32,243 nucleotides of DNA, from NCBI GenBank assembly GCA_025362195.1, contig JANYHV010000308.1, forward strand, positions 1 to 32,243, in the 5' to 3' direction. The notes beneath the pieces are model-generated. The model had not been told where the DNA came from. It was given only the letters and a program-made list of their open reading frames with translations, and did not search any database. Positions 23,245-32,243 of the stretch are shown here, piece after piece; the first letter of the stretch is position 1; the number at the start of each line of letters is the position of its first letter. A program made the position numbers and the translations under genes. This DNA is from Fimbriiglobus sp. (lineage in GTDB: Bacteria > Planctomycetota > Planctomycetia > Gemmatales > Gemmataceae).

Positions 23245-24237
23245 ATGGCCGTAACGCGGACCAACGTCCTGCTCGACCTCGCCGCCCGGGACGCCTTCCT
23301 GCGCGGGGTGATGCTGCTCAAGAACGAAACCTCGGCGGTGACGACGGCCGCCTTCGGCATCCCCGGCCCGCCGACCCCCATCCGGGCGTACGACTTGTTC
23401 GTGATCTGGCACCACACGGCCATGACCACGATGACGCCGAACCCGGACGGCACGAACCCGAACGGCCGGAACGCCGCGCACCGCGGGCCGATCTTCCTCC
23501 CCTGGCACCGCGTCTTCCTGTTGTTCTTCGAGCAGAACCTGCAGCGGGTCTTGGGCGACCCGAACTTCGGCCTGCCGTACTGGGACTGGTCGGCGGACGG
23601 GACGGCCCCCCCGGCCTTGCAGCCGAACAGCCCGATCTGGTCGCCGGACTGGCTCGGCGGCGGCGGTAACCCGGTCTCGACCGGCCGGTTCGCGTTCAAC
23701 CCCGCCGACCCCGCCGGCTTCCGGGTGCGCCTGGAGTCCGGCCCGTCCGGGAAGCTCCGCCAGGTGAACCTGGGCCTGTGGCGGGCGTTCGGTGCCTCCG
23801 CGGCTTCGCTGCCCAACGTCGCCGAAGTCGGGTTGTTGTTCGACCTGTTCGACTCGTCCCTCGACGCCGCCAGCGCGTTCCCGTGGGACGCCGCCTGCAC
23901 CGGGTTGTCCAACCGGCTGGAGGGGACCGCCCCCGGCGGCACGAACCTGCACAACCAGGTCCACCGGTGGGTCGGCGGGGCCATGCTCCCGCAGTCGTCC
24001 CCGAACGACCCGGTCTTCTTCCTGCACCACTGCAACGTCGATCGCATCTGGCAGGGCTGGCTGAACCGCCACGGGCCGGTCTACCAGCCGGACATGGCCG
24101 CCCCCGGAGGCCCGGTCGGCCACCGGATTCACGACCCGATTCTGTCGCCGTTCCTGCCCGGTCTGCCCGGGCCGACTCCCGCGATGACCCTCGACGTTTC
24201 CGCCGCGTACACGTACGACGTGGTCCCGCCGCCGTAA
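23245..24237 (+). CDS. Tyrosinase family type 3 copper protein, 330 aa
   Basis: CuA ligands: H56/H57 (IWHHT), H79 (AAHRGP) and H88 (LPWHR). CuB ligands: H236 and H240 (NLHNQVH) and H262 in FFLHHCNVDRIW. The H79-H88 spacing of 9 and the H236-H262 spacing of 26 equal those of Streptomyces tyrosinase. The protein should bind two coppers and oxidise phenols to quinones with oxygen, or act as a catechol oxidase; substrate preference cannot be read from sequence. The PYWDW motif (111-115) is present. No signal peptide or Tat motif, so it may act in the cytoplasm or travel with other proteins. It lacks a long C-terminal lid domain. The start follows the helper stop by one base. Confidence 0.93.
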   Translation: MAVTRTNVLLDLAARDAFLRGVMLLKNETSAVTTAAFGIPGPPTPIRAYDLFVIWHHTAMTTMTPNPDGTNPNGRNAAHRGPIFLPWHRVFLLFFEQNLQRVLGDPNFGLPYWDWSADGTAPPALQPNSPIWSPDWLGGGGNPVSTGRFAFNPADPAGFRVRLESGPSGKLRQVNLGLWRAFGASAASLPNVAEVGLLFDLFDSSLDAASAFPWDAACTGLSNRLEGTAPGGTNLHNQVHRWVGGAMLPQSSPNDPVFFLHHCNVDRIWQGWLNRHGPVYQPDMAAPGGPVGHRIHDPILSPFLPGLPGPTPAMTLDVSAAYTYDVVPPP

Positions 24238-24614: not shown

Positions 24615-27233
<2,619 letters not shown>

Positions 27234-27321: not shown

Positions 27322-27339
27322 GGGTTGCAGCGGGGGTCC

Positions 27340-27368
27340 TTGACTTGTGGTGCCCAAACTTTTAGAAC
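27340..27368 (+). promoter_or_regulatory. Candidate promoter for the defence-like gene
   Basis: TTGACT (27340-27345), a 17-base spacer and TAGAAC (27363-27368). Five of six and four of six bases match the sigma-70 consensus. Transcription would start near 27375, about 47 bases before ATG 27422. It lies inside the AT-rich island, so the gene may carry its own promoter. Confidence 0.45.
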
Positions 27369-27421
27369 TGCCTCGCGCGATTCTCCGATGCGGTACACCC
27401 ATGTAATTGTGAATAACTAGC

Positions 27422-29033
27422 ATGTCATTCTCGTTATTAATTCCGACTACCTTGTCGAATGCCCATATAAATATTACCGTAGTTGTCGGGGAGATACTGT
27501 TTATTCTCGGTGCAAACGGCACCGGCAAGTCTAGTCTGATGCAGGCATTCGCTTCTGCAGGCGGTAGTAACACTCGTCGGATCACAGCGCACCGCCAAAC
27601 GTGGTTTCGATCAGGATACCCTGAGTTTGCTGGGAAACAGCGAACCGATTACGAGTCAAGTGTAATTGGCCATGATCAGCAGACGAGCGCGCGTTGGATG
27701 GACAGCTACTCAGATCAACGACCTCAGATGGCAATATATGATTTAGTCAACTCCGAGAATGTGCGCCAGAGCAATAGCCCGCGCTGTCGATGCAAAAATG
27801 CCCGGTGAGGTTCTTGAATGTGCTGCTAAAGATGGCGCATTAGCGATTTTGAACCGTCTACTCAGACTCTCGAATATCGCCATCATCATATCAATAGAGA
27901 CAAGCGGCGAAATCACTGCGATTCGGAATAATAGTAAGCCTTACAGCATTGCAAAACTCTCTGACGGGGAGAGAAACGCGATCCTAATCGCGGCAAACGT
28001 GTTGACCGTAGCAGCGGGAACTCTTCTCCTCATTGATGAACCCGAACGACATCTCCATAGATTGATCGTATCACCACTTCTGTCGCTTTTACTGAAGGAG
28101 CGGCCGGACTGTGCGTTTGTTGTATCTACGCACGAGCCGATGCTTCCAGTCGATAATCCGCAATCCAAGGTTTTATTGACGAGAGCTTGCATCTACGAAG
28201 GTGACACGGTGATATCCTACGACATCGATTTGCTGAATAAAACCGATACGATTGATGACGACTTGAAGCGAACTATTCTGGGCGAGCGGCGGAAGATCGT
28301 ATTCGTCGAGGGCGTCGAACACAGCCTCGACAAACCGCTTTACAGCCTCCTTTTCCCGAATGCTTCGATAGTCGCTGAATCCAACTGCCGCGAGGTCGAG
28401 AATGCGGTTGTTGGAATTAGAAGCGCGGCTGAGTTGCACTGGGCCAAGCCGTTTGGCTTGGTGGACAACGATTCATCCGATCCAGCGCGGATCGCGGATT
28501 TGCATGCCAAAAGCGTAACCGCGCTCAGCGTCTATTCGGTTGAATCAATTTACTATCGCCCAGCTGTGCAGAGACTGGTGGGCGAGAAGATATCAGCGGT
28601 AACGGGCGGAGATCTAGAGGAGATGTTGCAGACGTCAAAAACTGACGCCATTAAGTGGATTCGTAAAAATACCAAGCATCTGAGTGACTGTATCGCCGAC
28701 AAGATGGCACGCGCTCAGGTCTGCTCGCTTTTGCCAAAAAAGGGCGAGATCGCGAACGGTGGGGAGCGTACTGTGACGATCGACTTTACAAAGATTGCCC
28801 ATGACGAAGGGTCACGTCTCGCACAGTTAGTCAGCGCATCCGATTTTATCGGCGTGTTGCAGAGGTATCCTATTCGGGAATCTTCCGCGCTCGATGCCAT
28901 TGCCAAGGCGCTCAACTTCCCCAATCGCCATCTCTATGAAGCAGCTGTTCGCAAACTCTTAATTGACGATCCGAAGGCGGTAAAGCTCGTCCGGTCCTTG
29001 CTTGGCTCGCTACCCGCTGATCTGCTTGCGTAA
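27422..29033 (+). pseudogene. Frameshifted ABC-type ATPase fused to DUF4435 (TOPRIM-like), PARIS-like defence gene
   Basis: Two overlapping frames make one protein of about 540 aa. The first (27422-27808) has Walker A GANGTGKSSL and RITAHRQTWF. The second (open from 27759) has ARAIARAVDAK, the ABC signature LSDGERNAI, Walker B TLLLIDEPERHLH, the H-loop STHEP, then KIVFVEGVEHSLD, LYSLLFPNASIV and FGLVDND. The last block is the DUF4435 domain; E184, D236 and D238 (second frame) are likely TOPRIM metal residues. In PARIS, AriA (ATPase) and AriB (DUF4435 nuclease) trigger abortive infection; fused versions exist. The frame change lies at about 27763-27766, where GTGCGCC looks like GTGCGCGCC minus one GC. 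It may be inactivated, rescued by frameshifting, or a sequencing error. Composition differs sharply from the host. Confidence 0.8.
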
Positions 29034-29044
29034 GCCTGCGACAA

Positions 29045-29257
29045 GTGGCCATAAGCGTACACACCGGATACCACGCGGGTCGGCTGCTGTGTCGCTACGC
29101 CGACGAGTTCCCCGACGGCAAGTTCCAGGTCTTCAAGGCGTTGGTCGCGAGCTGGGCGGCCGGACGATTCGCCTGGCCGACATCGGGGCACGCAGTCGCG
29201 AAGCCCGGGTTTGTCGAGGTGCCGGAGAAGGACATCCCCAAGCCCGCAACCAAATAG
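29045..29257 (+). CDS. Small hypothetical, 70 aa, probably a gene remnant
   Basis: GTG 29045 opens just after the island gene stop. The first codons lie in island-like DNA and the rest (HAGRLLCRYADEFPDG, FKALVASWAAGRFAW) in host-like DNA. It ends PEKDIPKPATK and TAG. I recognise no domain. The change in composition within the first ten codons suggests the 3' end of an older gene cut by the island. No clear Shine-Dalgarno sequence is seen. It stops 13 bases before the next ATG, so the two were probably once co-transcribed. Confidence 0.4.
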   Translation: MAISVHTGYHAGRLLCRYADEFPDGKFQVFKALVASWAAGRFAWPTSGHAVAKPGFVEVPEKDIPKPATK

Positions 29258-29270
29258 GCGAGGACTGACG

Positions 29271-29735
29271 ATGGCGAACACCTGGGCGATCCTGCCGGTC
29301 GTCCCCGGCCCCAACGACTTGCCGGGCCGGATCGAAAACGTTCTCACCGCAGCGGCGGCCTTGGCCGTGGTCGAGCGCGTGGAGCGGGCCGCTGCGGGTC
29401 AGCCGTTTTTGGTCCGGATCGAAGACCAACACGACCCGATGAAATGGATCGACGTCGGGGTGTGCCCGTGGGGCTGGGCGATGTTGTGTACCGACGACTA
29501 CGAACCCAACACCAGCGACAACTTCGTCACCCGCGGCGATAGTCACGGCCAAGAAGTGTGGGAATTCGATCAGCCGGGGGGACAGACGATGGGGTTGTCG
29601 AAGAAGTCCTTCGTCGATCCCAAGAGACTCAAGCGCGCCCTCGGCGTTTACCTTTCCACGCGGAAACTCTGGCGCGGGATGAGTTGGGAGCCGACTCCCA
29701 GCCCGCTGCTGCTGGCCGACGAACCGGACGCTTAG
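29271..29735 (+). CDS. Hypothetical protein, 154 aa
   Basis: GAGG about 7 bases before ATG 29271 supports the start. The sequence begins NTWAILPVVPGPNDLPGRIE, has a helix AAAALAVVERVERAA, then KWIDVGVCPWGWAMLCTDDY and a helix DPKRLKRALGVYLST near the end, with MSWEPTPSPLLLADEPDA as its tail. The Trp-rich strands followed by a helix and a final 'W-x-P' loosely recall small immunity-type proteins of toxin/immunity pairs, but I cannot assign it. Soluble, no signal peptide. Composition is host-like. It converges on gyrA, and the 70-aa frame is immediately upstream. Confidence 0.65.
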   Translation: MANTWAILPVVPGPNDLPGRIENVLTAAAALAVVERVERAAAGQPFLVRIEDQHDPMKWIDVGVCPWGWAMLCTDDYEPNTSDNFVTRGDSHGQEVWEFDQPGGQTMGLSKKSFVDPKRLKRALGVYLSTRKLWRGMSWEPTPSPLLLADEPDA

Positions 29736-29797: not shown

Positions 29798-32243
29798 TCA
29801 CTCCTCGCGCTTCGCGGCGATGTCGCTGACGGTTTCGCCGGCCAGCTTGGCGAAAGTGACGATGCGGTCGCCGTCGGCCAGGTTCATCACCCGGACGCCC
29901 TGGGTGTTGCGGCCGACGATGCGGATCTCGTCCACCTTCGACCGGGTCACCATGCCCTGCAGCGTCATGATGATGACCTCGTCGCCGTTGCGGACGGCCG
30001 CGATACCGACGACCGGGCCGTTCTTGTCGGTCACCTTCACGTCCTTCGTGCCCTTGCCGCCGCGGCGCTGCAAGCGGTAGCGGGCCGTGCCGCGCTCGAC
30101 CGCCTCGTCGCCCTCCTCGGCCTCCCCGTCGTCGGCGACTTCCTCGACCGGCTCCTCGGCCGGGTCGGCGGTGGCGTCGGGGTCGCCCTCGACGTCGGCC
30201 AGCACGACCGGGCTGTTGACGCCGAACGGGGTCCGCTTGCCGTACCCGAGTTCGCACACGGTCAGCAGGAAGCCGTCGGGGTCGGCGACGACCATGCCGA
30301 CGAGGTAGTCGTCCTTGCCCAGGCGGATGCCGCGGACGCCCTTGGTGTTGCGGCCCATCTCGCGGGCGTCGGACTCCTGGAAGCGGATGGCCATGCCCTT
30401 GCGGGTGCTCAGCACGACCTCGTCGCCCGGCTTGGTCAGGGCCACGTCGATGAGCGCGTCGCCGTCTTCGAGGTTGATGCCGATGATCCCGCCTGACCGC
30501 GGCCGGCCGTAGTCGGTCAGCGCCGTCTTCTTGACGACGCCCTTGCGGGTGGCCATCACGAGGTGGGACCCGGCGACGAACTCGCGGACCGGGATGACGC
30601 TCGAAATCTTCTCGTCGGCCTTGAGCGACAGGACGTTGGCGATCGACCGCCCGGCCGAGGTCCGCGTCGCCACCGGCACCTTGTACACCTTGAGCCAGTA
30701 GACCTGGCCGCGGTCGGTGAAGACGAGCAGGTAGCTCTTCAGCGTCGTGGTGAAAAAGTGCGCGACGAAGTCGTTGTCCCGGGTGCCCCCGGCGACGCCC
30801 TTGCCGCCGCGGTTCTGCACGCGGAAGGTGTCGATCGCCATCCGCTTCAGGAAGCCCTCGTGGCTGATCGTCACGACCGTCGGGTCGTCGGAAATCAACT
30901 CCTCGAAGTCCACGTCGCCGCCGTCGTCGGTGATCTCGGTCTTGCGCGGGTTGTCGAACCGGGTGCGGATCTCTTCGAGGTCGGCGCGGATGACGGCCTT
31001 GACCTTGGCGTCGTCCGCGAGCAGTTCCTCGTAGCCGATGATGAGGTCGCGGAGCTGGCGGTACTCCTTCAAAATCTCGTCGCTCTCGAGCGCGGCGAGC
31101 TGGCCGAGTTGCATCCGCACGACGGCCTCGGCCTGGGCCTCGGTCATGCGGTACACGTCGGTCTTGCCGAGTTCGCCCTGCAGCGCCGAGAAGGCCTCGA
31201 CGCCGATGGCGCGTTCGAGCACGGCCGCGGCCACTTCCATCGCCTGCAAGCGGATTTTCGTCTCGGTCCGCGACGGCGAGGTGCGGCAGATGCGGATGAC
31301 CTCGTCCAGGGACGAGATGGCGATGAGCTGGCCTTCGAGCACGTGCCCGCGGCGCTTGGCCTCGCGCAAGAGGTACTGGGTGCGGCGGCGGATGACCTGG
31401 TTGCGGTGGTCCAGGAAGTATTGCATCATCTCCTTGAGGGAGAGGAACTTCGGCCGGCCGTCCACGAGCGCGAGCAGGCCGATGCTGACCGTCTTTTGCA
31501 GCGGGCTGAACTGGTACAGTTGGTTCAGGATCAGGTGCGGGTCGGCCCCACGCTTCAACTCGATGACGAGCCGGACCGGCTCGCCGTTGCGGGCCGACGA
31601 CTCGTCGCGGATGCCGCTGACGCCGGCGATCTTCTCTTCCTTGACCAGCCGGCCGATGTCCTCGGCGAGCTTGTTCCGCGTCACCTGGAACGGCACCTCG
31701 CGGATCAAAATACTCGGCGTCTTGCCCTTGCCCTCTTCGACGATCTCGGCCCGCGCCCGCAGGGTCATGCGGCTGCGCTCGCCCATGTACCCGCGGATGA
31801 TGCCGGCCCGGCCCATGACGATGCCGCCGGTCGGGAAGTCCGGCCCGGGGATGATCTCCAGGATTTCTTGCAGCGACAGGTCCGGGTCTTCGATCATCCG
31901 AATCAGCGCGGTGCAAATCTCGCCGACGTTGTGCGGCGGGATGTCGGTCGCCATGCCGACGGCGATGCCGTCCGACCCGTTGACGAGCAGGTTGGGGAAC
32001 TTGCTCGGGAGGACGAGCGGCTCCTGGTACTTGCCGTCGTAGTTGTCGATGAAATCGACCGTCTCCTGGTCGAGGTCGGCGAGCATCTCGGCGGCGACGG
32101 GCGTCAGCTTGGCCTCGGTGTACCGGTGCGCGGCGGCGGGCAGGCCGGCGACGCTGCCGAAGTTGCCCTGGCCGTGGATGAGCTTCGACCGCATCACCCA
32201 GTCCTGGGCCATGCGCACCAGCGTGTCGTAGATGGACGAGTCG
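29798..32243 (-). CDS. gyrA: DNA gyrase subunit A, 5' end cut by window edge
   Basis: Breaking-rejoining subunit of gyrase, which with GyrB introduces negative supercoils. The protein runs off the right edge; the first residues seen are [15 protein letters not shown], equal to E. coli GyrA from D82, so about 80 codons are missing. The S83 and D87 positions are Ser and Asp, the quinolone-sensitive type. The active-site tyrosine is in [11 protein letters not shown]. The C-terminal beta-pinwheel has a near-canonical GyrA box QNRGGKG at the expected first-blade position and a perfect QRRGGKG in the last blade. Just before the latter is an acidic insert of about 30 residues (about 30090-30200). 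Two boxes favour gyrase over topoisomerase IV ParC. The protein ends DIAAKREE at 29798. The C-terminal gene boundary is clear; the start is unseen. Confidence 0.96.

Follow-up and report, generated by a model that had tools for sequence, protein, structure and literature searches.

A low-GC gene between clpB and gyrA

The window (the whole stretch of DNA analysed, 32,243 nucleotides) carries a PARIS-like gene of the fused AriAB type in the interval between clpB and gyrA, where the following features were located:

24615-27233, plus strand: clpB (TIGR03346, 1388 bits)
27396-27421, plus strand: short 5' flank of the PARIS-like gene (AATTGT..GAATAACTAGC ahead of the ATG), which resembles the flank of the Pseudomonas copies in nucleotide alignment
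27422-29033, plus strand: PARIS-like gene of the fused AriAB type, frameshifted, 1612 nt long (537 aa if the two lost bases are restored)
27422-27808, plus strand: first ORF, 128 aa (115 residues in the native frame, followed by 13 codons out of frame and a stop), the start of the ATPase with its Walker A motif
27759-29033, plus strand: second ORF, 424 aa, the remainder of the ATPase (signature, Walker B, His switch) and the TOPRIM/AriB-like C-terminal domain
27764-27766, plus strand: 2-nt deletion, GTGC--GCC versus GTGCGCGCC or GTGCGTGCC in relatives
ending near 29798, minus strand: gyrA

The AT-rich stretch between clpB and gyrA is sharply bounded. The GC content of the gene is 0.508, compared with 0.718 +/- 0.042 (minimum 0.64) for stretches of the same length elsewhere in the window, its GC3 is 0.55 (0.95 in both clpB and gyrA), and in codon usage it is 0.29-0.32 distant from four other genes of the window, about three times the 0.06-0.13 that separates those four from one another. 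By these contrasts, the low-GC island proposed in the first-pass annotation is real and far from chance; its location at 27335-29060 was correct, and its extent slightly wide relative to the tight borders at 27422-29033. As was also proposed, there is no mobility gene between clpB and gyrA. No tRNA that could serve as an insertion site lies within the window, the sequence around the gene contains no convincing target-site duplications or terminal repeats (just short repeats at chance level), promoter and terminator signals are no more frequent than in shuffled sequences, and an Rfam search gave nothing above threshold. An integron-type cassette was considered on account of the AACTAAC immediately before the ATG, and was rejected because no attC-like site was visible by eye.

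Several neighbours of the island were noted in passing. A 70-aa ORF directly past it (29045-29257), which may be a gene remnant, has no relative in the 102 genomes of the order. Farther toward gyrA, an ORF of 174 aa (29211-29735) matches the immunity protein Imm1 weakly and below threshold (17.8 bits against a cut-off of 22.4); 41 related genomes contain no relative of it. Upstream of clpB is a gene with a tyrosinase domain (23245-24237; PF00264, 149 bits).

In complete genomes of relatives, clpB and gyrA are separated (at 6.19 and 0.48 Mb in G003, and at 0.83 and 4.63 Mb in G010), in the same-genus genome G002 they are on different contigs, and none of the clpB loci checked in other genomes has gyrA within 1.5 kb, which places the island at a junction that only the present genome has and leaves no empty clpB-gyrA site for the comparison that had been advised. 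The clpB-island-gyrA junction is either a rearrangement or the product of a chimeric contig, the latter being ranked as less likely. A contig that joins two unrelated pieces, one with clpB and one with gyrA, would fit both the separation of these genes in the relatives checked and the lack of relatives of the two small ORFs beside the island, but is unlikely, because clpB has a 98% match in the same-genus genome G001 and gyrA a 77% match in G002, which places both sides in this lineage, and because gene order is only loosely kept in these genomes.

Domain architecture and its resemblance to PARIS and OLD proteins

The first-pass annotation described a single gene in which an ABC-type ATPase is fused to a TOPRIM-like domain, and had already spoken of a "joined protein", which implied two reading frames that its use of the word "gene" concealed. 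The domain make-up stands; the intact fusion does not, a 2-nt deletion having split the frame in the assembly. When the joined protein was searched against PADLOC models, as had been advised, the best match was the fused AriAB model PDLC02982 (8.5e-46, 154.7 bits), about 100 bits ahead of the next models, which were separate AriA (55.2 bits, 2.5e-15), a second AriAB model (50.6 bits) and PtuA (48.7 bits); this assignment to AriAB follows the ranking of profile scores. No other ATPase family is a better match, the best other system being PtuA. The relatives match PDLC02982 over almost its entire length; in L061, for example, residues 3-517 align with positions 27-551 of the 570 in the model. 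In Pfam, AAA_21 scores 61.9 bits on the joined protein (cut-off 27) and DUF4435 scores 14.1 bits on the window protein, under its cut-off of 27, which is passed by the more distant relatives L063, L064 and L057. In the published definition (PMC9122126), a single-gene PARIS fusion has to exceed a score of 20 with the AAA_21+DUF4435 profile that Rousset et al. used. The two-gene form, with separate ATPase and DUF4435 genes and at least 27 bits for DUF4435, was not found: the relatives have one gene of 537 codons.

The joined protein possesses the motifs of an ABC ATPase (Walker A GANGTGKS at 30-37, signature LSDGE at 180, Walker B LLIDEPE at 203, and the His switch STHE at 236) and of a TOPRIM domain (the glutamate of FVEG at 295 and the DxD of VDND at 348, as well as ESIYY). 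The ATPase motifs and the TOPRIM glutamate and DxD are nearly or fully invariant across 12 relatives.

A structural model was made for an intact relative 73% identical to the window protein (L004), standing in for it. The full model has a mean pLDDT of 86. Its residues 1-260 align with AriA (8v46_B) at Z 14.9 over 239 residues, and equally well with PtuA (Z about 15). Only about 240 aligned residues span AriA residues 4-444, so the ATPase part lacks some 200 residues of AriA (464 aa in E. coli, versus about 260 aa in the fused gene); with an ATPase shorter by that much, sensing of the trigger may differ from that of AriA. Folded alone, the C-terminal part reached a pLDDT of 90 and a pTM of 0.83, and aligned in VIA-align 2 with AriB at Z 8.8 (8ux9_A) and 8.5 (8v46_D), over 207 of 262 residues with an rmsd of 6.7-7.0. 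The AriB matches rank above every unrelated row, although the Z scores are modest and the rmsd is high; the TOPRIM domains of OLD proteins gave Z 5.3-6.0 over 118-158 residues, and GajA gave Z 5.0. AriB surfaced with VIA-align 2 only, a Foldseek search with the C-terminal domain alone having returned no PDB match at E <= 0.001, and a PDB sequence search with a C-terminal profile gave nothing meaningful. Together, the PADLOC ranking, the motifs and the AriB-like predicted fold of the relative support the fused AriA/AriB (PARIS-like) domain make-up proposed at first.

The closest known system is the PARIS fusion AriAB (PDLC02982; Rousset et al. 2022), in which an ABC ATPase and a C-terminal domain of the TOPRIM/DUF4435 type likewise form one chain. 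The resemblance extends to the best profile match, to a C-terminal fold nearest to AriB and to carriage on mobile elements; the window copy departs from it in being frameshifted and in having a DUF4435 score under the Pfam cut-off. Two-gene PARIS (ariA and ariB of E. coli B185) has the same ATPase and nuclease domains and catalytic motifs, in two genes as opposed to the one reading unit here. Septu/retron PtuA has an ATPase fold as similar as that of AriA, but its partner is the HNH nuclease PtuB, whereas here a TOPRIM domain is in the same gene; neither a PtuB HNH gene nor a retron was found among the ORFs between clpB and gyrA.

Class 1 OLD nucleases (P2 Old, Thermus scotoductus OLD), which act on DNA, share with the gene an identical domain order, N-terminal ABC ATPase and C-terminal TOPRIM, in a single-gene layout. 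OLD (6p74) was also the top Foldseek match of the whole L004 model (E 5.3e-7, but with a TM of 0.22), and, according to a review (PMC10568477), fused AriAB and class 1 OLD are not clearly delimited from each other. Nevertheless, it is quite improbable that the gene encodes a class 1 OLD nuclease instead of a PARIS protein, given that the modelled C-terminal domain of L004 aligns less well with OLD than with AriB, that no OLD profile matches as strongly as the leading AriAB model, and that DUF4435 exceeds its cut-off in the three more distant relatives. As to where such fusions should be grouped, with PARIS or with class 1 OLD, the best available evidence is the AriB-like predicted fold of the C-terminal domain.

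The interrupted reading frame

The assembled gene lacks an uninterrupted reading frame. In a nucleotide alignment with four intact relatives, the 2-nt deletion near 27765 is the sole indel over 1612 nt; apart from it, the start, the stop and all motifs are in register and there is no premature stop. The ATG of the first ORF occupies the start position of all four relatives. The overlap of the two ORFs measures 50 nt, and a short GC repeat contains the break. The gene differs from L004 with a dN of 0.18, similar to the 0.155 of the intact L003, synonymous sites being near saturation, and so gives no sign of long decay.

The 2-nt gap is either a young knock-out or an error of sequencing or assembly, and the balance leans slightly toward the former. 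The alternative, serious if somewhat less probable, is that the living cell has an intact, functional gene and that the gap was introduced during sequencing or assembly: the rest of the gene is fully colinear with its relatives, it has diverged from L004 about as far as an intact relative has, and the draft genome from which it comes (G000) is in 509 contigs at 87.46% completeness. However, losing two bases from GCGC is what replication slippage typically does, and a young knock-out would present the same picture. It is highly improbable that the full protein is made part of the time, through programmed +1 frameshifting or through phase variation at the GC repeat. The 50-nt overlap and the position of the break could suggest it, but the four relatives read through the site in one frame, the repeat consists of no more than two or three units, and the junction showed no classical slippery site on inspection by eye.

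If the knock-out is genuine, the frameshifted copy would produce an ATPase fragment cut short and, possibly, a C-terminal fragment with a start of its own and without Walker A. Unless the gap is an artefact, a PARIS-type system reduced to such fragments is most likely dead, and the window gene is probably inactive.

Relatives, foreign origin and probable function

A scan of 84,980 species genomes with six short peptide patterns found at least four close relatives, a lower bound given the brevity of the patterns, in Pseudomonas laurentiana, P. tumuqii (L003), P. subflava and one Phycisphaeraceae metagenome-assembled genome; each is a single ORF of 537 codons, 69-73% identical to the joined window protein. 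Rather than being present in all relatives of the host with adapted composition, the island is nearly absent from the order: among its 102 genomes, a close match occurs in the window's own genome alone, with one further relative of 30% identity (G055), and 392 genomes of the phylum yielded just one more match (28%). Seven of 399 Pseudomonas genomes have a match at 1e-60 or better. Phage records contained nothing beyond one distant match (25%) in an Oenococcus phage; viral contigs gave no match to a single-sequence query, and 13 loci when an alignment was the query.

All relatives, Pseudomonas copies included, have a GC content of 50-53%. This shows that the low GC travels with the gene family and that the gene is foreign to its present host, and that composition does not give the date of its arrival, since relatives from other hosts have the same GC content. 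The recent transfer that had been read from composition and codon use is thus supported as to foreign origin, while its recency is not shown by composition.

Relatives are carried as mobile cargo: the P. tumuqii copy adjoins an integrase-bearing element (ORFs inspected by eye), and others are on small mobilizable plasmids of E. coli and Salmonella and on a viral contig. Two of the E. coli plasmids (L062 and L063), 5-6 kb and mobilizable, have a full-length relative about 31-33% identical, and L062 also has a gene for a toxin of the ToxN/AbiQ type; both look like tiny defence plasmids. On a Kocuria plasmid (L064:2268-8847), a relative is flanked by a TIR-domain gene on one side and an N-6 DNA methylase on the other, in a small defence island. 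A 50%-identical relative at the end of a viral contig (L065:341-2110) is beside ORFs that by eye resemble structural portal and protease genes, and was regarded as prophage cargo.

From these observations, the gene is quite likely a horizontally acquired single-gene defence gene of the PARIS type, now frameshifted and most likely inactive. PARIS of E. coli senses a trigger, cleaves tRNA and causes abortive infection (PMC9122126, PMC12409363), and by analogy the same steps may be expected of the fused branch. In the intact relatives, the AriB-like TOPRIM nuclease at the C terminus would be held in check by the N-terminal ABC ATPase, which would act as the sensor. Triggered by a phage protein (an anti-restriction protein, for example), the ATPase would free or activate the nuclease, which would then cut host tRNA and halt growth ahead of phage multiplication. 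A more tentative proposal, with perhaps a modest chance of being correct, is that the compact fused AriAB constitutes a distinct branch of PARIS with different triggers, its nuclease being activated in cis and not released, of which the window copy is a broken member.

Being broken in the assembly, the window copy is of little use for study, and the intact relatives L003 and L005 (both from Pseudomonas) and L004 are better objects, usable for testing whether fused AriAB functions as two-gene PARIS does or as class 1 OLD does. The family was already known; PARIS-type genes were known to be patchily spread, and the window gene adds a further lineage. The occurrence of a near-identical gene structure in Pseudomonas and in a Phycisphaeraceae genome indicates that these genes move between distant bacteria and keep their own base composition.
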